21,803 nt of DNA from a virus, in IMG/VR virus record IMGVR_UViG_3300017951_000164, positions 1 to 21,803 of that record; one strand, 5' to 3'. Shown in pieces: positions 1,819-21,586 of this stretch; positions within the stretch are counted from its first letter, which is position 1; every line of letters begins with the position of its first letter. Made by a program: the position numbers and the translations under genes. The notes below the pieces were generated by a model. The model was not told where the DNA came from. It did no database searches and saw only the letters and a list, made by a program, of their open reading frames with translations.

Positions 1819-4299
1819 TTAAGGTCTTGACTCCAGAATATTTCCGTAATTCGGCGCCCTGCCCGGTTCTGTCGATCCTGGTTTCCACCAGTATTTCTGT
1901 CCGTACTCTCTACGATATCGGCTCTCGAGGCGTCGCATATTCGATCGCGCCTTTGGATCCGCCATCAGTTGCAGCTGATCGATGACCATACGCTCGAGGC
2001 CGAGGCGCGTATACCAGAGGCTCGAGCCTGGTGTGTAACGTGCAGCAAACCGGATAAGTTCCCGAGCCGCGTTAGTGTCTTCGCCTTGAGCTGCTTCCAC
2101 CAGGTTGCCAACTGTCAGTTTGCGTAGATCATCAGCAAAACCAACAACAGGACCAGCGACTGTTTCAGCCAGTCCTCGATCGAAACGGTTTACGTCTGAG
2201 AACATGAAGTCGCCATAGATACCTAGACCACCACCCTGAAGGAAGGCTGCCAGCCAAAAAGAATTATCTGTCATTGGACGCGGATCTCGGCCTTTGCTCA
2301 TTTCTTTGAGCTGCAACGCCAAAGCGCCCATGATAGTGGTTGATATGATAAGGTCAGCGAAATAACGTCCCTTACCTTTTGCTCCTGGTTGAGACATACC
2401 GCGCATCAAATGCGTGTTTACTAAGGTAATCCCGAAATTCTTATACATTGCAAAAGATCTAGTTAGCTCACCAGATATTGTTCCTGGACGGGTTTCACCT
2501 GTTAGGGCAACACGACCACGCAAGCTCGAAGATGGCACAGCAAAGTTTGTTTCTGTCTCGACCATCTCCATCAATCTGGTTCCCAGATCTCTAGCTAGAC
2601 CAGGAGCAATATCAGTACGAGCCTCGATGTCTTCCGCTCGAAGGAAACTTGCACCCTCATGCTCATACAATGGAGAGCTGCGCATTACATTCCAACGATC
2701 TTCATCGATCCCATAACGCTCGAAGGTCTTACGCATAGGCGCATCAAGCTCATCGAAGCGCTTTCCTACGTTATCAGCCAGTGTTCCCAGGAACTCCATG
2801 CCGAACGCCCAGCGTCCTGCTTGCGTCATTGGAGACAATAAAGAGGCACGCATTACAAAATCTGAAACACGGCGCGTTATCTCAGGACCAGATATATCTC
2901 CAACATAGCGCATCTGAGCTGATGCCAGGCTTGACCAACCTTCAGCAATCAATCCAAGGCGAATGGCTAACTTGCCTTTTTCTTCAGCTCCTAATGGCGA
3001 CAACAACTTTAGATATTGATTAATCGTACTTGCCTGGGGTAAGCCGACAAAACTTCTAGCCATACGTTGAAAGTTTACGTCAGTGATTGCAGAGATCGCG
3101 GCAGCACCTAGCTGTGCAGATTGCAACACCTGGCGCAGGCCAGCAAATGTATTGCCAAATTTACTATCGATTGGCGCATTATTAGCGCCAGTAACAGCCA
3201 TATAAAGATTGTCGAGACGAGCGGAAGCGCGAGTTGCAGCCCTTTCAGCTGCTTCATCAGCGGCCATACCAGCTTGTTTTTTTATGGTTTGTTTTATGAA
3301 ATTAACTGTTGCTCTGGGATTTGGCCCCAATATTTCCATCAATGCAATGTCTTTAGACATCTGCTTGATATGCCCGAACATCGTATCAAAAGAATTAGCA
3401 TTGCCAAATTTCTCTTGATACTGCATCCAAGCATCTGCGTTTTTGAACACCAGGAAGCGATGATCGAGGCGACGATTAGCAATCGCCTTACCTTGACCAA
3501 CCGCACCAGGAATCAATTTATTCATGCCATCAGTGCGGATCGACTCATATACATCTCGTAGAGCGAGTTCCATGCGTTCTGGTGTAAATTGCAAACCAGT
3601 ACGCTCATCGATCATTTTTAAACTATCAAGACGAGGCTGGATGAAATCCCGCCATTCTTCAAATGTTACTCTGCGAACAGCAAGAGTATCATGTATCTGA
3701 GGCAGCCCCCAATCTTTGCGCTTTGGAATACGGCCACCGGCTGCATTAAATCGCTGGCGCAAATAATCAGCTGCTTGCGTCCAAGCTTCAGCCATTTCTC
3801 TGGCGCTTGCGCTACCAGTGCTGCCAGGCTCGAATATTTCACGCACCATTTCTTTCAGCTGCGCTTTGTTCCTGGTTTCACCAAGCAAATTACGGCGGAA
3901 CGTAGCTAATACATCATAAAGTTTTCTTGTGGCTGCGCGTTCAACAGCTGCTTCTCTCTGAACAACGCTCGAGTATTTAGATAAACCATCGCTATCGAAC
4001 AGCGCTTGAGCTGCTTTTGCATAGTCTATCTCACCCCTTAGATTACGATATTGATCGAGATTGTATTTAATTTCCTGCCAATTTTGGATTTGCAATAACT
4101 TACGGCGCTTGCGCTCAAACACTTCACGCTCGAGAGCATCGAAGGCATCACGCGCCGCTTTGGCACTAGCAGCAGCTCGGCCCATTTTGCCTGTGTATTC
4201 TTGCTCAAGATCATCGAACAGATCCCGCGCCTCTCGAGCTTGCTCTGGGGTTATAGTGCCTTCAGCCTCGGCGTTTATAATACATTCCCGCAAACTCAT
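1819..4299 (-). CDS. Large internal virion (ejection) protein candidate, 826 aa
   Basis: This is a long, mostly helical protein with an Ala/Arg/Glu-rich N-terminal 130 residues. I chose the ATG at 4299 because its ATGA overlaps the TGA stop of the upstream gene; a GTG three codons earlier (4308) is possible. It sits between the gp16-sized ejection protein and the tail fibre, where marine podoviruses often carry an additional large internal protein. The C-terminal part has two hydrophobic stretches, around residues 645-665 (ADLIISTTIMGALALQL) and 680-700 (FWLAAFLQGGGLGIYGDFMF). The second is a motif I recall from such phage proteins. They could contact or cross the host inner membrane during DNA entry. 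No peptidoglycan hydrolase or nuclease motif was seen. The virion role is inferred from size, position and composition. Confidence 0.65.
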   Translation of the reverse strand: MSLRECIINAEAEGTITPEQAREARDLFDDLEQEYTGKMGRAAASAKAARDAFDALEREVFERKRRKLLQIQNWQEIKYNLDQYRNLRGEIDYAKAAQALFDSDGLSKYSSVVQREAAVERAATRKLYDVLATFRRNLLGETRNKAQLKEMVREIFEPGSTGSASAREMAEAWTQAADYLRQRFNAAGGRIPKRKDWGLPQIHDTLAVRRVTFEEWRDFIQPRLDSLKMIDERTGLQFTPERMELALRDVYESIRTDGMNKLIPGAVGQGKAIANRRLDHRFLVFKNADAWMQYQEKFGNANSFDTMFGHIKQMSKDIALMEILGPNPRATVNFIKQTIKKQAGMAADEAAERAATRASARLDNLYMAVTGANNAPIDSKFGNTFAGLRQVLQSAQLGAAAISAITDVNFQRMARSFVGLPQASTINQYLKLLSPLGAEEKGKLAIRLGLIAEGWSSLASAQMRYVGDISGPEITRRVSDFVMRASLLSPMTQAGRWAFGMEFLGTLADNVGKRFDELDAPMRKTFERYGIDEDRWNVMRSSPLYEHEGASFLRAEDIEARTDIAPGLARDLGTRLMEMVETETNFAVPSSSLRGRVALTGETRPGTISGELTRSFAMYKNFGITLVNTHLMRGMSQPGAKGKGRYFADLIISTTIMGALALQLKEMSKGRDPRPMTDNSFWLAAFLQGGGLGIYGDFMFSDVNRFDRGLAETVAGPVVGFADDLRKLTVGNLVEAAQGEDTNAARELIRFAARYTPGSSLWYTRLGLERMVIDQLQLMADPKARSNMRRLESRYRREYGQKYWWKPGSTEPGRAPNYGNILESRP

Positions 4300-7200
4300 T
4301 GGACGCACCCCCGCAAGCGATCAAGCATCTTTACATCTTGCTCGATATCATTTTGTATCTGCCTTAATGAGACTGTTTGTGCTACGATCTCACCAGTTTC
4401 TGGATCAACGCGGAGATCGACAGGTATCTCCTCATCTAAATCCAGCTTGATATTCTGGTTAGCGATATCTATATTGTCCGAGGAGGATTCAATGAGGTTC
4501 TTTTTAGTAGACGGATCCATACCAGCCATCGAGACATCGAGCGGCGATATGGTGTCTTTATCAACCACAGGTAGCTGGTCGCCTATTAAGGCTTCAGAAG
4601 TGCTAGGTGACGAAGGATCGCCGGAGGTCACACGCGACCTGGTAGCTTCGTTGACGGCTCGGCTTGGTGCATCCATGCCCGATGGCGTTTGACGCGCTAG
4701 AATTGCTTTCCAGCTATCGGATAATTTATTAGCTACATTGCTATAAAGCTGCTGCATATCCGCAACAGCCTTTGCTCTAGCTTCCTCTGGCTGTGATAGA
4801 TCTCTGGCTATACGATAAAGCGCATGGCCTCCGCCCACGCCCTTTGCATCCAACATCCCAAGTGGCCAGATCTGGATCTCGCCTATCTGTCCATCGTCAA
4901 AGATGACCGACAGTTTGCGATCGAAGTATCCTTCGGGCGTGAAATTATATCCTTCATCGATGACCTTATAGCGTTTGCCGATGGCAGCGACAAAGGCATC
5001 CGCGATCTCATTTGTTTCAACCTCGATCCCGCCACGGGCGACATCGGTGACGCGGTTAATATCTCCAGCGTACTTATCGCGGATTTTCTCATCCACACGT
5101 TTACGCTCTTTCAAGGAAGCGACCTTCTGCTTTGCCCCTACAGCATCCGCAATACGACCAATTTCGGCAGTCAAATCACTGTGGTTTCGAGCGGCACGCT
5201 CCATTAGCTCATCAACAGATTGAATATTCTGGTTTGCTCTAGCTTGCAGCCCAATGGCTTTTGCTTCAGCAAAATCAATATCTTGAAGACGAATTACCTG
5301 GTCATCTGGAATCCTTACTTCTATTTGAGCAGGAGACTCTATACGAACAGACATAGGTTCGCCTTGAAAGCGAACAATCAATTCTTTTTCTGCATCATAT
5401 CCTGCAAAAAGAACGTCTTTTTTATCAACATCAAAAAAGCTTTTCGGACGACCTTCTGGCCCTGGTCTTAGATCTGCATAACCTTCTGTTCGTGAAACAG
5501 GGATTTTTTCTCCTGGAAATAATCTATCTAAATTAGCCCGTAAAACATCTGCATAATCAGAGTACTCATCAGAGCGCATAGCTACATCTAATGCTTTTCT
5601 GTCTACATCATAAATGTATTTATTTATGTTTTCGCTAATTGTTGGAAACTCTAAAAGAGCCCCTTCATCGCCCATAGAATCAAAAAAACCTTTTAGATTA
5701 GCATCAGGGATATCGGCCTCTCGCACAGGCTGCGGCGCTGGATCCGCAGCGCCAAAGATATCTTGCTCAAGCTGATCGCCCTGTTGTCTTACGCCTGCTC
5801 CGCCTGGCTCATCGAAGTCCTCGACTGCGCGTTCTGCAAGCGGAGGCGTTCTGCCTTCCGTTGGAGCATCGATAAGCTGTCCAACATCGCCAGTTGATAT
5901 CCTGTCGATATCGCCTGATTCAGCTGCGAGTCTGACAGAATCGACGAAATTTCTAGTAGGTTCTGCGTAGCTCCCGCTTTCTCGAGCTGCTCTTGCTGCT
6001 GCATTGAGGGCATCAGAGACTGGGCCTTTGCGGTTTGCGAGGGCTTGGAGGATCGCAATCGTTTGCGCGTCATTAGCAGCTCTCCTTTCATTTGCGTTCT
6101 TAGCCAGCTGATTGCCTTCGGCCTCGAGGCGTTCAGCATTGTTGACCAGGTTTTGAAATGCGTTTTTATCTTGGCGTAATTGTTTTTGTGCGCGGTCCAG
6201 GATCCTGGCGCGTTCTGCAAAGTAACTTTCTGTTATGACTTCTTCGCCAAATAAACTATCTTGAGTTACTCGCTCACCGCCTGCTTCTCGAACCTGGCGC
6301 ACGATTGCTTCGGCCTGGAACTCATTGGCTGGATCGGTCTTTGCTAAAACAGATATGGCGTTGTTCTGTAGCCCTTCATCTTCTGGAATAAGTCTTCCAA
6401 CCAGAGCGGCATAATTCGCCGGCACAACATTATTTACAACGGCGCCAAAAGCCTCGTCAGAGAGCATGGTTAATCCCTGGGCCTGACGTACCAGGGCGGA
6501 TCGAGGTGGCAGCTCACCAACGCGCTCAGGCGCCACACGCAGAACTTTAGCTGCATCGATGGCCGTTCCTGTTCCTTCTGCAATGTTTTTTACTGCCGCA
6601 ATGACCCTGGCCATCTCTGGTGTCACGCCATCGACTTCACGAAGCAGATGTCCATACAGCCGAACATCCTGGTCTGGATCCTGGGATTTAATGCGTTTAG
6701 CCAATCCTAGACGTTGATGGCCGTCTGCAATGAACCGACTGCCATCAGCGTATTCAAACACTGTAATCTGTCCGGCCTTGATTGGATCCCATTGGGTAAC
6801 ACCTTGGAGCCGCTCACTTACGCCAAATTCATCGCCACCGGCTTTAAACTGAAACGTCTGCGCATCGACCTGGATTTCAGTTGGATCAAACCTATAGATA
6901 AGGCCATCAATATTATCCGCATCGTAAACGCTTTCCTTAGCCCGTACAGGTGCAGGAGGCGTATCTGGCATTGCTGGTGGCTCTGCGTTCTCAGCTGCCA
7001 CTGTGGCAAGATCTAAACGCTCCTGGTGCGCTAATTCATCTGTTAAAGGATTGTTTGCCGCATCACCTTCGAGGATTTCAGCTTGACGCTCCGCTGTGCG
7101 TGTAACCGACGTTGGTTTAAAAGCACCACTCTCAACTAACGCTTTATAACCTTTTTTAAACTGATCCGCAGTTAATGAAATCGTCCTGCCGCCAGCACGA

Positions 7201-7961
7201 AATGCAACAGGCATTGCGCCACCAAACGCACCGCCCATAGCCACCGCTGTCCAAAATTGTTCTGGTGTGTATTTGAAACCTAATTTTTTGTACCATTCTT
7301 TAACACCGGTCTGAGACATAGCCTCAACACCAGCTCCGAGCATCGCCTCACGGAAGATTGCGCCATATAAAGTCCGCGCCCCACCGGCAATAAAAACTGT
7401 TTCAACATTGATCGGATCTGTGGCAACGCCCCCCATACCACCTATAAATCTAGCAATAGTATTAAGAGCTCCAGGAGACCGCCCCTCTAATTCTTGCAAG
7501 GTTTCTCTATCTTGCTTTGCTTGCTCCATTCCACGGCGCAAAATTTCTTCGTGCGTTACCCATTGCAGATCTGGAAAGATGTCTTTGTTTTCTTTTATGT
7601 AATCGACAATTTTTTGTGCATTTATCATGTATTGATGCTGAGAAGCACCTGGCGTTGCAGTCGCGTTCAACATACTAGAACTGATTACATTGGCTGGATT
7701 ACTAAAACCATCATGCATAAACGTGCGTATTTTAACGCCAAGAAATTCACTATGGGAATCCATACCTGTACGTTCATTGATAGTATCAACAACAGTAGCC
7801 CATTGATCTCTTAGAACAGTCGCTTCGCTATAAGCCTGATCGTTCGATCTTGCTACATTGAACGCAGCAGACAGATTTTCCATAACGCCACCGATGGGCT
7901 TATCAACGCCATCAGACGGAACTAAATCTAGCGGATCCTGTTTCTGGAATAGAAAAGTCAC
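4296..7961 (-). CDS. Multi-domain ejection protein (gp16-sized) with ParB-like and RelA/SpoT-like segments, 1221 aa
   Basis: Position after the gp14- and gp15-sized genes and a length close to T7 gp16 (1318 aa) point to an internal core protein ejected with the DNA. The start is GTG at 7961, overlapping the previous stop as GTGA, with GGAGGAGAG just upstream. Residues about 180-260 are Gly/Ala-rich and hydrophobic. Residues 355-425 contain a ParB-like core, with DGHQRLGLAKR at 413-423 after an IQVD strand. Residues 580-690 are charged and helical, followed by a disordered, Pro/Asp-rich linker. Residues 932-1088 resemble RelA/SpoT synthetase-like domains: a basic SLKERKR helix, TDVARGGIEV (D973, R976), GEIQIWP (E1028, Q1030) and K..GGGHALY (H1046). 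The last 130 residues are Ser/Asp-rich. The best description is a polyvalent protein of the kind known from phages and conjugative elements. Enzymatic activity is inference. Confidence 0.75.
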   Translation of the reverse strand: MTFLFQKQDPLDLVPSDGVDKPIGGVMENLSAAFNVARSNDQAYSEATVLRDQWATVVDTINERTGMDSHSEFLGVKIRTFMHDGFSNPANVISSSMLNATATPGASQHQYMINAQKIVDYIKENKDIFPDLQWVTHEEILRRGMEQAKQDRETLQELEGRSPGALNTIARFIGGMGGVATDPINVETVFIAGGARTLYGAIFREAMLGAGVEAMSQTGVKEWYKKLGFKYTPEQFWTAVAMGGAFGGAMPVAFRAGGRTISLTADQFKKGYKALVESGAFKPTSVTRTAERQAEILEGDAANNPLTDELAHQERLDLATVAAENAEPPAMPDTPPAPVRAKESVYDADNIDGLIYRFDPTEIQVDAQTFQFKAGGDEFGVSERLQGVTQWDPIKAGQITVFEYADGSRFIADGHQRLGLAKRIKSQDPDQDVRLYGHLLREVDGVTPEMARVIAAVKNIAEGTGTAIDAAKVLRVAPERVGELPPRSALVRQAQGLTMLSDEAFGAVVNNVVPANYAALVGRLIPEDEGLQNNAISVLAKTDPANEFQAEAIVRQVREAGGERVTQDSLFGEEVITESYFAERARILDRAQKQLRQDKNAFQNLVNNAERLEAEGNQLAKNANERRAANDAQTIAILQALANRKGPVSDALNAAARAARESGSYAEPTRNFVDSVRLAAESGDIDRISTGDVGQLIDAPTEGRTPPLAERAVEDFDEPGGAGVRQQGDQLEQDIFGAADPAPQPVREADIPDANLKGFFDSMGDEGALLEFPTISENINKYIYDVDRKALDVAMRSDEYSDYADVLRANLDRLFPGEKIPVSRTEGYADLRPGPEGRPKSFFDVDKKDVLFAGYDAEKELIVRFQGEPMSVRIESPAQIEVRIPDDQVIRLQDIDFAEAKAIGLQARANQNIQSVDELMERAARNHSDLTAEIGRIADAVGAKQKVASLKERKRVDEKIRDKYAGDINRVTDVARGGIEVETNEIADAFVAAIGKRYKVIDEGYNFTPEGYFDRKLSVIFDDGQIGEIQIWPLGMLDAKGVGGGHALYRIARDLSQPEEARAKAVADMQQLYSNVANKLSDSWKAILARQTPSGMDAPSRAVNEATRSRVTSGDPSSPSTSEALIGDQLPVVDKDTISPLDVSMAGMDPSTKKNLIESSSDNIDIANQNIKLDLDEEIPVDLRVDPETGEIVAQTVSLRQIQNDIEQDVKMLDRLRGCVQ

Positions 7962-10162
7962 ATCTCTCCTCCAGGATCACTTTGACGCAAATTAAAATAT
8001 TTTAAGGCATCCAAAATGATCGGATTGCCATGTTTGTCCGTAAAATATTTGCGCCCTGTGCTATATGCGTTGCTAGTTTCGAACATCAAATAGTAACGTC
8101 CTTCATCTAATAGGACGGGGAAAATATCATTATCGTCATTTATCTGTTTGACGATTTTTGGATCGATATCAATCAATCCTGTGTTTTCTTGCAATTCATC
8201 AATCGTTATTTTATCGAGCATCTTGTTAAGATCGTTTTTATTAAGAGCTGACGGCAACAATATTTTTTGATCGCGTATCTCATCAAAACCACCGTTCCCT
8301 GTGTATGGGTTACGGCCAAACGCCTCATTTATAGCTTCATTGTATAAGCGACCATCAAACTCCTCGACGCCTTTATCAAAAGCCTTTTTTGTATAAATAG
8401 CCTCGACAACCTTACGCCCCGTGGCCAACGCCTGAGATTGAAACAACAAAGCCTGGCCAACTTCGCTCATATAAAAACTTTTTGCTTCATCAGAGTTTAT
8501 TCCTGGCGGCTTATTCCCTTGTTTGAGGAGATCAAAACCAGCAAGAGCAAAATTGGCCGCATCTTGCGCACCTAAAGAAAGCAAACCGCCAACATGGGCC
8601 ATTTGATCTGATTGCTTTGAAACTTGTTCCAATATGTCTGGAGCAAGACTTCCAGCATATCTGTTAATTTCTTGCAAAAGATTCAGACGAGCTCCGCGAT
8701 CGCCTTCTTCGAGGATATTGCTAAGAACAGAAATTTCTTGATTCGTTAATAATTTGAGAGGACCGCCATATATTCTTTGAACACGTCTTGCTGCTTGGAT
8801 GCGATCCAACCACGATGCAGATGCCTGTTCTTCTGTAACTCGACCAGGCTCATTCATAGCCGGCAATAAAACCGGTTTGAAATCAATTTGGCCAGCTCGA
8901 ACAGCATAAGAGACAGGATCTTCTTCGAGTCCTCTCACCATATTATTATAAAGAGCTTGAGCGCTGTTAAGGATTGCGACCTCAACCTTGGTATCTAATC
9001 CCTTTGCTCCAGCACCAGGAATACCATCAGACATCTCTTTTATTGCAAGATCGAGCTCGACTGGCCCCATCTTACGAAACCCAACCATTTGCGTTCGTAT
9101 TTGATAGAACTCATTTAACTTATCTTCTGCCGGCCCTCGATATTCTTCTGGCAGTTGCAAAATACGTTGAGCCATTTGAATTATTTGAGCTTCCCCAGGA
9201 TCTCCGCCTTTTTCAAGGATCTGTTGAAGATCACCAATATCTCTTACCAAATCGCGGCCTTCGCCTTTTAAAAACGATCGAGCATTGTTTGTTTCTGCAT
9301 TAAGAGATCGAACTAGGCTCCGTGTTTTTTCAACACCCAATTCTTTTGGAGGATTCTTCGTAAGATCCGCAAGGAACGCTTCTTGATCTTTAAGATTACC
9401 AAGGCGCTGAAAATCTGCGATTGTTCCATCAATAACTGATTGTTCTGTGGTGTGAATAACTATCTTGCTAATTGCAGCTTCATCGCTGCCATTGTCTCGC
9501 ATGTAAGTAGCAAGGTTTTCTAAACCGATAGAAACCGCGACTGATCGCATGTTTGGATCAGCTATGCTTGAAGCATTTCTAAATATTTCTTTTTGACGCT
9601 GATCGATGCCAATTATCGCACGACCTCTAGCATCGTCTTCGAGCTTTTTGCTCCAATAATTAGAATATCTAAAACCAGCAGTAGCTGCGTGCGACCCTAG
9701 TTTGGTCTGTAGAACGCCGGCAACCTCTGGATCCAGGTCCGACAAAGCAGCGGGAAAGCCGTCAACAACATCGGTTAGACGTGTTTGTATTTCTGCTAAC
9801 GGTGTTTCACTATTTTGGCCTTCAGTAACAATACGATCGATCTCGAGCATTGCATCAGTTTCAATTTCTGAAGATGCAATTCGATTAGCAATCTCATATG
9901 CTTTGCGCTCACCGGCTGTTGTTGGCCCTCCAGCTGCACGCAATTTGCCTAGAACTGGCTGCGCACCCATTTCTCGAACTATTTCACCAGCCTGTTGCTC
10001 GTCTTTTTTGATCTGTTCCCGATACAAGAAATCAGACATTTGATCGACGGTCTGGCTAATCGTTTGACCAAATCGAACATTTTCACGAAAATTTGCAAAA
10101 TCAACATTTGCAGGCTGTGCAGATCTAACGCCAAGACGTTGATATGTAGGAAGTCTAGCCAT
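7958..10162 (-). CDS. Internal virion protein, T7 gp15-like position and size, 734 aa
   Basis: The protein is a soluble, charged and largely helical chain without clear transmembrane segments. Its 734 residues are close to T7 gp15 (747), which forms the periplasmic part of the DNA-ejection conduit. It lies directly between the gp14-sized and gp16-sized genes, as in T7. I chose the ATG at 10162 (starting MARLPTYQRLG), which has GAGGT five bases upstream and lies 7 bases after the preceding stop. An earlier in-frame start at 10216 would reach back into the upstream gene and add a low-complexity MAAWVTMAAAW leader. No catalytic motif was recognised. The role is inferred from order, size and composition rather than from a clear family signature. 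Confidence 0.7.
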   Translation of the reverse strand: MARLPTYQRLGVRSAQPANVDFANFRENVRFGQTISQTVDQMSDFLYREQIKKDEQQAGEIVREMGAQPVLGKLRAAGGPTTAGERKAYEIANRIASSEIETDAMLEIDRIVTEGQNSETPLAEIQTRLTDVVDGFPAALSDLDPEVAGVLQTKLGSHAATAGFRYSNYWSKKLEDDARGRAIIGIDQRQKEIFRNASSIADPNMRSVAVSIGLENLATYMRDNGSDEAAISKIVIHTTEQSVIDGTIADFQRLGNLKDQEAFLADLTKNPPKELGVEKTRSLVRSLNAETNNARSFLKGEGRDLVRDIGDLQQILEKGGDPGEAQIIQMAQRILQLPEEYRGPAEDKLNEFYQIRTQMVGFRKMGPVELDLAIKEMSDGIPGAGAKGLDTKVEVAILNSAQALYNNMVRGLEEDPVSYAVRAGQIDFKPVLLPAMNEPGRVTEEQASASWLDRIQAARRVQRIYGGPLKLLTNQEISVLSNILEEGDRGARLNLLQEINRYAGSLAPDILEQVSKQSDQMAHVGGLLSLGAQDAANFALAGFDLLKQGNKPPGINSDEAKSFYMSEVGQALLFQSQALATGRKVVEAIYTKKAFDKGVEEFDGRLYNEAINEAFGRNPYTGNGGFDEIRDQKILLPSALNKNDLNKMLDKITIDELQENTGLIDIDPKIVKQINDDNDIFPVLLDEGRYYLMFETSNAYSTGRKYFTDKHGNPIILDALKYFNLRQSDPGGEM

Positions 10163-10169
10163 TTTTACC

Positions 10170-10676
10170 TCACGTCCAAGCTGCCATGCCGCCGCCATAG
10201 TTACCCATGCCGCCACTTAAACTAAGAGCTGGGAAACCAGTTTGCTGACTTCGTTGATATCCACCATAAATAGTTCCAGCAGCATTTATATAAGCTGTTG
10301 CCATAGCGGTACGGCCAGCATCTTTATAGATTTTGGACTGATAATCAGCCATTCCCAAAGCCATCTGAGAGTTATCAAGCGAGGTGTTATATTCGCGGAT
10401 GCCTTCTTTCATAGATCTATTCTGTAATGCCTGAGCAGATCCGGATGATGGATCGATATTGCCAGCCGCAGCTCCAGTTATGATTGCCGCATTTGTTTCA
10501 TTTATCCGACGAAGAACATCAGCCGCTTGCTGTTTGTAAGCGATTGCTTGACTGCGACCTTGAATACGCGCCTGGGCTGCTTGAGCGTTATATGCTTTTT
10601 GCTGTTGCCGGCCAGAATAAAGCTGACCAGCAGCAGACACGGCGGTCATTGCAACTAATGATATTGCTGCTGACAT
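10170..10676 (-). CDS. Internal virion protein, T7 gp14-like, 168 aa
   Basis: The N-terminus (MSAAISLVAMTAVSAAGQLY) is a hydrophobic, small-residue helix. It is followed by a long Gln/Ala-rich helical stretch (SGRQQQKAYNAQAAQARIQG), a Gly/Ser turn (AAAGNIDPSSGSAQA) and a Gly-rich tail. This pattern is typical of gp14-type proteins, which in T7 (196 aa) are ejected first and line the channel at the outer membrane. The ATG at 10676 lies one base after the stop of the tail nozzle gene and has GTGGGG upstream. An alternative start at 10712 would overlap that gene by about 35 bases and lacks support. It is the first of three consecutive genes matching gp14, gp15 and gp16 in order and size. Confidence 0.7.
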   Translation of the reverse strand: MSAAISLVAMTAVSAAGQLYSGRQQQKAYNAQAAQARIQGRSQAIAYKQQAADVLRRINETNAAIITGAAAGNIDPSSGSAQALQNRSMKEGIREYNTSLDNSQMALGMADYQSKIYKDAGRTAMATAYINAAGTIYGGYQRSQQTGFPALSLSGGMGNYGGGMAAWT

Positions 10677-10677
10677 A

Positions 10678-12873
10678 TCAATTCCCCACTGACATACGAT
10701 ATTCGATACCAAGTAACGTCATTTTTAATGGCGCGGTTTGGCTAATCGTAATTTGACCGGTGTTAGTAAAACCTAAGAGTCCGCTGACTGTCTTGGTTCC
10801 TGTAAATTCTTCAACAGCAGTATCAAGAACACCTTCACCAAATTGTCGGAACGCAATTTCTTTTCCATTGATCGTCATGTTTTGCGTTTCGTACACGACG
10901 GCATCCACCTGGAGGATCCGCTTTTTTGTGCCTAACAATGTACCCTGAGCCAATCTTGGCTCGGCAGGCATGGTTTTGAGGGTTACGTCGTAATTCAGCC
11001 CGATTTGATAAGACGTTGTTGCTGGTGTATCAAAAGAAACATTACTAAAAAAATGCGTAACTTCTTGATCCGCCTCGATTATACCATCTCGAATAATTTT
11101 AACTGTTTCATCGTGTAAATGAACCACATAAACACTTGACGCCGCCCCACCACTTAAAGCGCTATCAAGTTGTAAATCTGAATCAAATTTCTCTAAATAA
11201 TACCGAGTTTGACCCTCTACTACACGTTTTACAATTACATAGATCGAATCAATCTCGCATCCGATCGCTATAAATTCTCCATCAGTTGTAAATGCACTGG
11301 GCGCAATAACATTTTGTGTGGCAAGTATAGAGTAAACCGTCATCGTTCCATCGCTATTTACGATGAACATTCTATCGGTTTCATCTGTCGACGTTGCGCG
11401 TCGAACCGCTAAATCAACAGGGTCTTTAATTAAATGCGAACTAAGAACAGACAGCATCTGCGTGTTATATGATGCTGTAGCGTCTGAAAACTGAAAGCTA
11501 ACAAGCGATTTACCTTGCCGCTGCACAAAAATCGTGGCGCCATTCAAGTCATCGATGGGAACGCCAGGTTTGCTGCCCAATCTAGTTTGTGGCTTCACCA
11601 AAAAACTAGAAGGTGTAATCGGATCATTCGGACCCTGAGAAACAACAAACTCGCCACCAGAAGTAAAAATCTGAAGCTCGGGGCCGCTAAACATATGAGT
11701 AATAACATTCAGCTGATTGGTATTGATTGTTGCTTCCACTGAATCATCATCCAATGCAGATCCAGGATTGAAGTTAAAGAAATCAATAACCCTCGAACCC
11801 CAAACCGTATTCGGCCTGGATTTAGCCCCACCAAAATATAAACGCCCTTCATGGAAGGTTGCTGATCGAGGCCAGCCTCTGGTGTCTGACCAGGTGTCCT
11901 CGTACCCATGCTCACTTTCCCACTCACCAGCAAGAATGTCAGATGTATCAAAAAAGTCTATTTCGACATACGCCTTCATCTCTGTATGGCTAACGTATTC
12001 TGTATATCGAGCACGACCAAAACCATTTAATACATTTAGGTATTCGCCCACAGCTGCCGGCTCGAACGGATTTATTGTATATTGAGATGTGTTATCTGGG
12101 GCCGTATCCCAATCAGGATAGACCGTAAGAACCTTCGATGACGCAACATAGTCTTCGACATGCCGCGTTTGTCCCGCTCCGGTTCCAGCTGTTATATGTA
12201 TGAACATACCATTGGGTTCATCATCCGCGGTAAAGCTCGAAGCAGCTTTAAGAGTTATTGAAGCAGAGCTTCCAGCTTGAGCCGTTCCAGTGTCTGTTGT
12301 TGCGGCAGAAGCTGTAATCGTTATGTTTCCAGTAACAGCAGATGGCGTAATCGTGAACTGCGGTTCATGTGTATCTATAGCATAGGCATACTGCGGAATA
12401 AAACTTATAGGCAGAGCGCCAATCGTCCAGCTTGTATCGCTATTCCTTATAATTCTTTGCGGCTCAAGATCCTCATGCACCAGGATAAGAGTATCAACAG
12501 CTTGCGTATAATTAAGCTCATCGAGCATCGCTGCCGTTATTGTAGTTGTGGCATAGACATTACCGCTACCATTTATGTTTGTTTGCAGCACACCGTCTTT
12601 AAAAATGTACATACGCAAATCAACAAAAACCAACGTATAGCTATCGGTCGTATTGAACTCGAATGGAATTATTTTAAAGTCTGTAAAAGACGTACCAAAA
12701 TTATGGATAAATCTTAGACCATCTCTGCGCCTTACACCGCCTTGAGGCTGGACATATACATTCGTCGCAGTCTCTAGTGCGTTCTGATATTGCTCGAGAT
12801 CAGTACGCGCCTTGAGAAGCGGATCCAGCTCTCCGACTGAAAAGTTGGTTTGAAACTGAACAATCCGCGTCAT
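10678..12873 (-). CDS. Tail tubular protein B (T7 gp12-like nozzle), 731 aa
   Basis: The N-terminus (IVQFQTNFSVGELDPLLKAR) and the following NALETATNVYVQPQGGVRRR carry the recognisable pattern of podovirus tail nozzle proteins: a short strand, the 'G-E-L-dP' motif, then a helix and an Arg-rich 'GGvrrRpG' turn. The rest is beta-rich, consistent with the beta-propeller-containing nozzle. Its length is near that of T7 gp12 (794). The protein would form a hexamer below the adaptor ring, hold DNA in and serve as platform for the fibres. It starts one base after the adaptor stop, with GAGG in the junction (AGAGGATAACATG), and is followed with a 1-base gap by the gp14-like gene. Confidence 0.9.
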   Translation of the reverse strand: MTRIVQFQTNFSVGELDPLLKARTDLEQYQNALETATNVYVQPQGGVRRRDGLRFIHNFGTSFTDFKIIPFEFNTTDSYTLVFVDLRMYIFKDGVLQTNINGSGNVYATTTITAAMLDELNYTQAVDTLILVHEDLEPQRIIRNSDTSWTIGALPISFIPQYAYAIDTHEPQFTITPSAVTGNITITASAATTDTGTAQAGSSASITLKAASSFTADDEPNGMFIHITAGTGAGQTRHVEDYVASSKVLTVYPDWDTAPDNTSQYTINPFEPAAVGEYLNVLNGFGRARYTEYVSHTEMKAYVEIDFFDTSDILAGEWESEHGYEDTWSDTRGWPRSATFHEGRLYFGGAKSRPNTVWGSRVIDFFNFNPGSALDDDSVEATINTNQLNVITHMFSGPELQIFTSGGEFVVSQGPNDPITPSSFLVKPQTRLGSKPGVPIDDLNGATIFVQRQGKSLVSFQFSDATASYNTQMLSVLSSHLIKDPVDLAVRRATSTDETDRMFIVNSDGTMTVYSILATQNVIAPSAFTTDGEFIAIGCEIDSIYVIVKRVVEGQTRYYLEKFDSDLQLDSALSGGAASSVYVVHLHDETVKIIRDGIIEADQEVTHFFSNVSFDTPATTSYQIGLNYDVTLKTMPAEPRLAQGTLLGTKKRILQVDAVVYETQNMTINGKEIAFRQFGEGVLDTAVEEFTGTKTVSGLLGFTNTGQITISQTAPLKMTLLGIEYRMSVGN

Positions 12874-21390: not shown

Positions 21391-21586
21391 GGGTTTTCTC
21401 CTCTTTCATGAAAAACTGGAAAATATTTTTGTGGGCCCCCCATACACGAACGCGCGGGGGCGGGGGCGCATGGGTGGGTGTGCGCGCGTATGCGTGCGCG
21501 TGCGTACACCCGTGCATGTGCGCGCGTGCGCGAGGGGCGACACGTTCTACAGGCCATACGACCGTTTGGCTCGTTTACACCTGGCA
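21391..21586. other. Noncoding gap with GC-rich alternating tract
   Basis: I see no credible gene in this 196-base gap; frames through it read as low-complexity Ala/Arg/His/Pro. It holds a poly-G/C segment near 21431-21466 (including GGGCCC), a long alternating purine-pyrimidine tract, and an AT-rich stretch next to the downstream ribosome site (about 21405-21430). No convincing promoter or terminator hairpin was found. Confidence 0.6.
21478..21532. repeat. Alternating purine-pyrimidine (Z-DNA-prone) tract
   Basis: Bases 21478-21509 alternate purine and pyrimidine without a break for 32 bases, and 21511-21532 for another 22. Both are mostly CG and TG/CA steps. The 11-mer TGTGCGCGCGT occurs at 21479-21489 and again at 21517-21527. 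Such runs are known to favour left-handed Z-DNA under negative supercoiling. Confidence 0.75.

Follow-up and report, generated by a model that had tools for sequence, protein, structure and literature searches.

A putative RelA/SpoT-type synthetase domain in an exchangeable slot of a short-tailed phage ejection cassette

Apk1/Tas1, a (p)ppApp synthetase of the Pseudomonas aeruginosa type VI secretion system (T6SS; PDB 6ox6), is delivered by the PAAR/T6SS route, is paired with an immunity protein, carries the sequence GxN in its Syn3 motif and apparently has extra residues before its G-H motif. Its active-site set consists of R330, E382, Q384, K353 and N370 (PMC12691689, which prints 'Q382' for the glutamine; we take it as Q384 from the E-x-Q spacing). 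The Syn3 signature is GxN among enzymes that make (p)ppApp and SxH among those that make (p)ppGpp (PMC12226406). SaEAS (PDB 8vx3; PMC12691689) is a Sec-exported, single-domain enzyme. In temperate phages, Apk2 enzymes are MuF-(p)ppApp synthetase polymorphic toxins, with the immunity genes iapK and aph1 located downstream, and their activity has been proven biochemically (PMC12226406). Iyer et al. (2017) reported that polyvalent proteins of phages can contain RelA/SpoT domains, naming prophages of Spirochaetes and epsilon-Proteobacteria as well as MuF fusions, and proposed an alarmone-like response on invasion (PMC5512222). Finally, the gp14/gp15/gp16 proteins of podoviruses can carry enzymatic domains, as in the case of the T7 gp16 lysozyme and the K1E gp15-like lysozyme (PMC8954989), the known cargo being a peptidoglycan hydrolase.

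We analysed a 21,803-nt stretch of viral DNA (the window; IMG/VR record IMGVR_UViG_3300017951_000164), in which a multidomain protein of 1221 aa is encoded on the minus strand (4296-7961, GTG start) between a gp15-like and a gp16-like gene. With Apk1/Tas1, this protein has in common the best sequence match, the SYNTH (RelA/SpoT-type pyrophosphokinase) fold and the active-site D, R, E and Q, but it is encoded by an ejection-cassette gene, has no immunity gene and carries DRK in Syn3. SaEAS is the best match by fold and shares the active-site Arg, Glu and Gln, despite only 16% identity to the phage domain. The fusion of SYNTH to a phage head protein is a feature in common with Apk2, whereas none of the other Apk2 hallmarks applies here: Pfam gave no match to an N-terminal MuF domain in the 1221-aa protein, adjacent iapK and aph1 genes were not found at the locus, where the gp16-like gene abuts or overlaps, and proven activity is a property of Apk2. 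The multidomain organization, the virion-gene setting, the RelA/SpoT-type domain and the proposed host reprogramming at entry are all shared with the cases of Iyer et al., from which the present proteins differ in belonging to a short-tailed phage gp14/15/16-type cassette and in forming a distinct, compact subfamily. Gene order and the exchange of enzymatic modules are as in podoviruses, but the cargo here is a nucleotide pyrophosphokinase-like domain. Thus, the idea is not new: it was outlined in 2017 (PMC5512222), and the MuF-linked Apk2 enzymes are proven. Our search, which covered open-access literature, yielded Iyer et al. 2017 as the only work on virion-delivered RelA/SpoT enzymes. New are the ejection-cassette setting, the absence of immunity, the compactness of the domain with its unusual DRK acceptor motif, the conservation of the subfamily and the modular slot. 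The subfamily comprises about two dozen contigs in the podovirus ejection cassette.

Sequence matches and predicted fold of the SYNTH domain

The SYNTH domain occupies residues ~914-1090 (4692-5222, minus strand), as delimited by sequence and fold matches. A preliminary description had aligned residues 932-1088 with landmarks of RelA/SpoT synthetases; its numbering is exact, both for the ORF (7961 to 4296, minus strand) and for this segment (5168 to 4698), and D973, R976, E1028, Q1030 and H1046 lie at the positions it gave. The likeness goes beyond chance. When residues 900-1110 were compared with 177,635 PDB sequences using phmmer, Tas1/Apk1 was the sole significant match (E 8.6e-7; second-best, E 0.11), and one relative (L001) matches Tas1 independently (E 3.6e-4). 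Profiles built with 3 and 20 relatives improved the Tas1 match to E 6.2e-8 and 1.6e-8, respectively. Up to E 10, the latter profile retrieved nothing besides Tas1 from the PDB sequences, and a second weak stretch of the alignment covers Tas1 G-x-GHKYYE, the counterpart of GGHALY.

The domain went undetected by Pfam RelA_SpoT (PF04607) in all 20 members of the family, which places the family pattern in the divergent Tas1/EAS branch. The earlier reading of this pattern therefore stands for a RelA/SpoT-type SYNTH domain but not for RelA itself. When hhalign was used to compare the family directly with RelA/SpoT of E. coli, the match fell short of significance; the short alignment obtained is in register across G-Y...E-x-Q. 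A link is provided by a solo protein of 239 aa encoded on an Azospirillum plasmid, which matches the family (hhalign, 96% probability, E 1e-9) and, at the same time, Pfam RelA_SpoT (E 2.9e-4, score 21.5 against a cut-off of 27). Judging from these alignments, this protein bridges the phage family to Pfam RelA_SpoT. Given the non-significant direct comparison, the case for homology is built on the Tas1 match, the fold and the bridging Azospirillum protein. The Azospirillum oryzae plasmid protein (L055:2839-3558) is itself unannotated and displays Tas1-like SYNTH motifs, with RelA_SpoT just below the cut-off; none of its annotated neighbours is an obvious immunity gene.

Pfam, NCBIfam and PADLOC offered no informative family for the SYNTH domain, and tblastn against the INPHARED phage records recovered none with the domain. 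The HD hydrolase, TGS and ACT domains of canonical long RSH (RelA/SpoT/Rel) were not found in the 1221-aa protein. All 20 members show a weak match to phrog_7625 ('head morphogenesis'), at the C-terminal end of that phrog. Weak Pfam matches, for example to AIRS_C (E 0.005) or, within the insert, to KTSC (E 0.0024), were rejected, being below cut-off and not common to the relatives.

The AlphaFold2 model of the domain, based on the 20-sequence alignment (pLDDT 87, pTM 0.84), is predicted to adopt the SYNTH nucleotidyltransferase fold. Foldseek matched the model to 33 PDB chains at E <= 0.001, every one of which is a RelA/SpoT-type synthetase, led by Tas1 (7.4e-8) and SaEAS (1.8e-6), followed by small alarmone synthetases, Rel and RelA. 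In VIA-align comparisons, SaEAS ranked highest (Z 14.9; 172 residues, rmsd 2.8 A), with Tas1 at Z 14.7 and SAS1/SAS2/RelP at ~14; CapRel scored 11.7, FaRel2 7.0 and unrelated nucleotidyltransferases 7 or less. The best viral structure matches (BFVD) lie in other large phage proteins of ~1000-1300 residues described as ART-PolyVal-like, DdrB-like or RelA/SpoT. Collectively, residues ~914-1090 almost certainly represent a SYNTH domain of RelA/SpoT type that belongs to the branch of Tas1(Apk1) and the exported alarmone synthetases. A chance or low-information resemblance could appeal to the absence of any Pfam match, but it is contradicted by independent evidence from sequence, profile and fold; this reading has a negligible probability and is already refuted.

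Active site and selection

The active-site residues were mapped onto Apk1 through the HMMER alignment with Tas1 (chain offset 21), whereby R330, E382, Q384, K353 and N370 correspond to R976, E1028, Q1030, R997 and K1016, respectively. The basic helix K951-K959 (5085-5111; all motifs on the minus strand) is the equivalent of the ATP-binding IKSRERAMQK of Tas1, and the D973-V-A-R976 motif (5034-5045) contains the putative metal-binding Asp along with the R330 equivalent. R997 (4971-4973) stands in place of Apk1 K353. The Syn3-like acceptor motif G-Y-F-D-R-K (1011-1016; 4914-4931) has K1016 at the position of N370, the E-x-Q catalytic motif is E1028-I-Q1030 (4872-4880), and the K..G(H).lY motif is represented by K1040...G1045-H1046..Y1049 (4815-4844), with G1045 invariant. 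Eleven further positions are invariant in 20/20 sequences (K951, R955, K959, D973, R976, R997, Y1012, K1016, E1028, K1040 and Y1049), and Q1030 is kept in 19/20 relatives. Position 1046, by contrast, is H in 10, T in 9 and A in one of the 20 sequences. The claim that the key positions are retained thus holds for D973, R976, E1028 and, with one exception, Q1030, including the Glu/Gln pair, but not for H1046. Four further relatives retain D, R and E, and one has R in place of Q1030.

Syn3 of the family reads DRK (D1014-R-K1016, the lysine being present in 20/20), which is neither GxN nor SxH. Furthermore, the family lacks a stretch of ~25 residues between K1040 and G1045 that the Azospirillum relative, and apparently also Tas1, possesses. 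Owing to these two features, the nucleotide acceptor is not predictable from sequence.

The members compared share 51-80% identity, with the catalytic residues kept, and dN/dS ranged from 0.06 to 0.24 in 11 pairwise comparisons, the values with dS above 1 being rough. By this measure, the SYNTH domain is under purifying selection. Relative to the L016 group, identity amounts to 53% for SYNTH, compared with 40% for the ParB/DdrB-like region of the same protein, 40% for the gp16-like protein, 26% for the N-terminus and 27% for tube B; relative to the L007 group, identity is ~63% for SYNTH and ParB, 61% for the gp16-like protein and 31% for the N-terminus. Conservation of this kind speaks in favour of an enzyme that is active, and we regard catalysis by the domain as quite probable.

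The ejection cassette and its variable slot

On the minus strand, the genes follow the order tube B (phrog_376), gp14-like, gp15-position, SYNTH protein, gp16-position and tail fibre, which agrees with the arrangement of ejection cassettes in podoviruses (tube B - gp14 - gp15 - (cargo) - gp16). The gp14-like internal virion protein (10170-10712, minus) matches phrog_418, with T7_gp14 sub-threshold; the gp15-position protein of 752 aa (7958-10216, minus) matches phrog_992 ('head protein'), and the gp16-position protein of 829 aa (1819-4308, minus) matches phrog_684 ('virion structural protein'). Because the gene for the latter and the SYNTH gene overlap at the 3' end of SYNTH, there is no space for an immunity gene. 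In those relatives' loci that are long enough, the gp16-like gene likewise overlaps the SYNTH gene or starts within a few bases, except in L021 (2-4633), where the SYNTH and gp16-like proteins lie in one frame of 1543 aa, through either fusion or sequencing error. Nine records, several of them fragmentary, contained no HD_4 hydrolase genes and no matches to the tyrosine-integrase family.

The N-terminal region of the SYNTH protein (residues 1-340; 6942-7961, minus), mildly hydrophobic at ~170-255, diverges fast (25-35% identity to distant relatives) and is partly common to the counterparts in Dunaliella viridis virus SI2 and L027. It is followed by a ParB/DdrB-like region (residues 341-700; 5862-6941, minus; phrog_10691, phrog_21) whose conservation in the nearer relatives is approximately that of SYNTH and which is also found, at 44-49% identity, in Ruegeria phage 45A6, as part of an exceptionally long, 11.7-kb ORF, and in SI2 (L024, L025). 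An extra module inserted beside SYNTH (residues 752-885; 5307-5708, minus) is absent from the 80%-identical relatives but has a counterpart with 55% identity in an unrelated phage (L026:3251-3610), where it forms part of a 721-aa protein encoded between terL and portal-like genes. The structure prediction for this module (residues 745-900) reached a pLDDT of 51. Its pattern VSR...KSFFDVDK.DVLF.G.DAE.ELI.R recalls R-S-E ADP-ribosyltransferases, for which it is a candidate only. The C-terminal tail (residues 1111-1221 plus stop; 4296-4631, minus) ends similarly to the counterparts devoid of SYNTH. The presence of two or more disparate domains (ParB/DdrB-like, SYNTH and the mobile module) in one virion-region polypeptide fits the definition of polyvalent proteins; the HExxH motif of the zincin metallopeptidase, a domain that is frequent but not universal in such proteins, is absent from the 1221-aa protein.

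The same slot holds different proteins in other phages. In SI2, it encodes a protein of 792 aa that has the ParB region and resembles the window's protein at its C-terminal end, yet lacks SYNTH; the adjacent gp16-like gene is 40% identical. In MT835618 (L027:4828-8007), the slot protein has 1059 aa, a weakly similar N-terminus (E 8e-5) and a GH108 lysozyme domain above cut-off, and the adjacent gp16-like gene is 42.5% identical. The occupation of one slot by a protein lacking SYNTH or carrying a lysozyme, along with the mobile module, indicates that the middle of the protein is exchangeable, and the SYNTH domain accordingly looks like exchangeable cargo of an ejection-cassette protein. The label 'ejected virion protein' in the preliminary description is supported by gene order and by module swapping in the slot, the protein being a putative virion component.

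A possible role at entry and alternative readings

Based on established podovirus biology (PMC8954989) and the properties of the SYNTH family, we infer the following course, which runs from packaging through arrival in the cytoplasm to catalysis and the acceptor used. By analogy, the SYNTH protein would be packaged with the gp14/15/16-like proteins and enter the host with the DNA; with ATP as the donor, the SYNTH domain would then pyrophosphorylate a nucleotide at its 3'-OH, generating (p)ppApp and/or (p)ppGpp, and host metabolism would be lowered or redirected ahead of phage gene expression. Delivery with the DNA is probable, and the product may well be a mononucleotide alarmone. For the complete chain, from a Tas1/EAS-branch SYNTH cargo through packaging and delivery at entry to alarmone synthesis, we put the chances slightly below even. 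The earlier interpretation along these lines, in which activity was put conditionally, is, overall, supported. None of the outcomes named as refuting it occurred: a RelA/SpoT-type sequence match exists, the predicted fold is that of SYNTH nucleotidyltransferases, and relatives retain the Glu/Gln pair (E in 20/20, Q in 19/20).

Assuming 3 mM ATP, 4-10 copies of the protein and a toxSAS-like turnover of ~1e5 per min, we estimate that an enzyme as fast as Apk1 could spend the ATP of a small cell in no more than a minute; the output of a slow one would be micromolar signalling amounts. Fast ATP use would harm the phage too. The actual enzyme may have a lower turnover or be kept in check, which would fit a phage that depends on its host cell. 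A more specific version, which we put forward tentatively and regard as somewhat doubtful, is that a short-tailed phage lineage injects an active alarmone-type pyrophosphokinase that has no immunity partner and acts on host nucleotide metabolism before phage expression, and that the invariant DRK may give it a product or target other than (p)ppGpp and (p)ppApp.

The same active-site peculiarities invite other explanations. A catalytically dead SYNTH fold with a structural role, such as nucleotide or DNA binding in the ejection apparatus, would account for the replacement of N/H by K1016 at the acceptor site, for the variability of H1046 and for the ~25 missing residues, and would be in line with the mosaic nature of podovirus ejection proteins (PMC8954989). 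It is, however, improbable, considering that D973, R976, E1028, K951, R955 and R997 are invariant, and Q1030 nearly so (19/20), at 51-80% identity, that omega is 0.06-0.24, that SYNTH is better kept than the adjoining structural parts in distant relatives, and that the SI2 cassette does without the domain, which implies that SYNTH is not needed for ejection. An acceptor motif outside both the (p)ppGpp and the (p)ppApp types would also suit an enzyme that, like FaRel2 and CapRel, adds pyrophosphate to the 3'-CCA ends of tRNA and stops translation in the host; several phage- or defence-linked SYNTH enzymes modify tRNA (PMC11559606, PMC11782079). Yet the nearest proteins by both sequence and fold are the nucleotide-using Tas1 and SaEAS (Z 14.7-14.9, against 11.7 for CapRel and 7.0 for FaRel2), and translation of phage proteins would be blocked as well, so that we consider a tRNA target quite unlikely.

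Timing is a separate issue. Virion operons are expressed late, and the SYNTH protein might act late in the producing cell, in host shut-off or in the timing of assembly, its position in the virion operon being incidental. This scenario, too, has a low probability: the gene adjoins the gp15-like and gp16-like ejection genes in those loci that extend to them, the lysozyme in the same slot of MT835618 has a role that is sensible at entry, and the nine records, some of them fragmentary, yielded no immunity or HD_4 hydrolase gene. Should delivery at entry by the ejection cassette prove correct, the particle itself would bring an enzyme making signalling or toxic nucleotides ahead of gene expression, the stringent-response enzyme family would be tied to a DNA-ejection machine, and the gp15-gp16 slot would be an exchangeable cargo bay holding nothing, a lysozyme or an alarmone synthetase. 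A clean test follows from this reading, as an active-site change should spare the particle and alter only early host physiology.

Several minor observations concern the surroundings of the gene. A fragment of the same phage protein occurs amid bacterial oxidoreductase-like coding pieces in a contig of the Rhodobacteraceae MAG UBA7951 (L028, DOIS01000399.1); this contig is probably chimeric and was kept out of any host assignment, as it can at most hint at a roseobacter. At the end of the window beyond the gp16-position gene, a tail-fibre-like ORF (1-1779, minus) contains many imperfect repeats, e.g. 'NITNVNTVAGISADVT'. At the opposite end, positions 21430-21540 form a G+C-rich tract of alternating purines and pyrimidines (GCGCGCGTATGCGTGCGCGTGCGTACAC...), which is unusual for the window.
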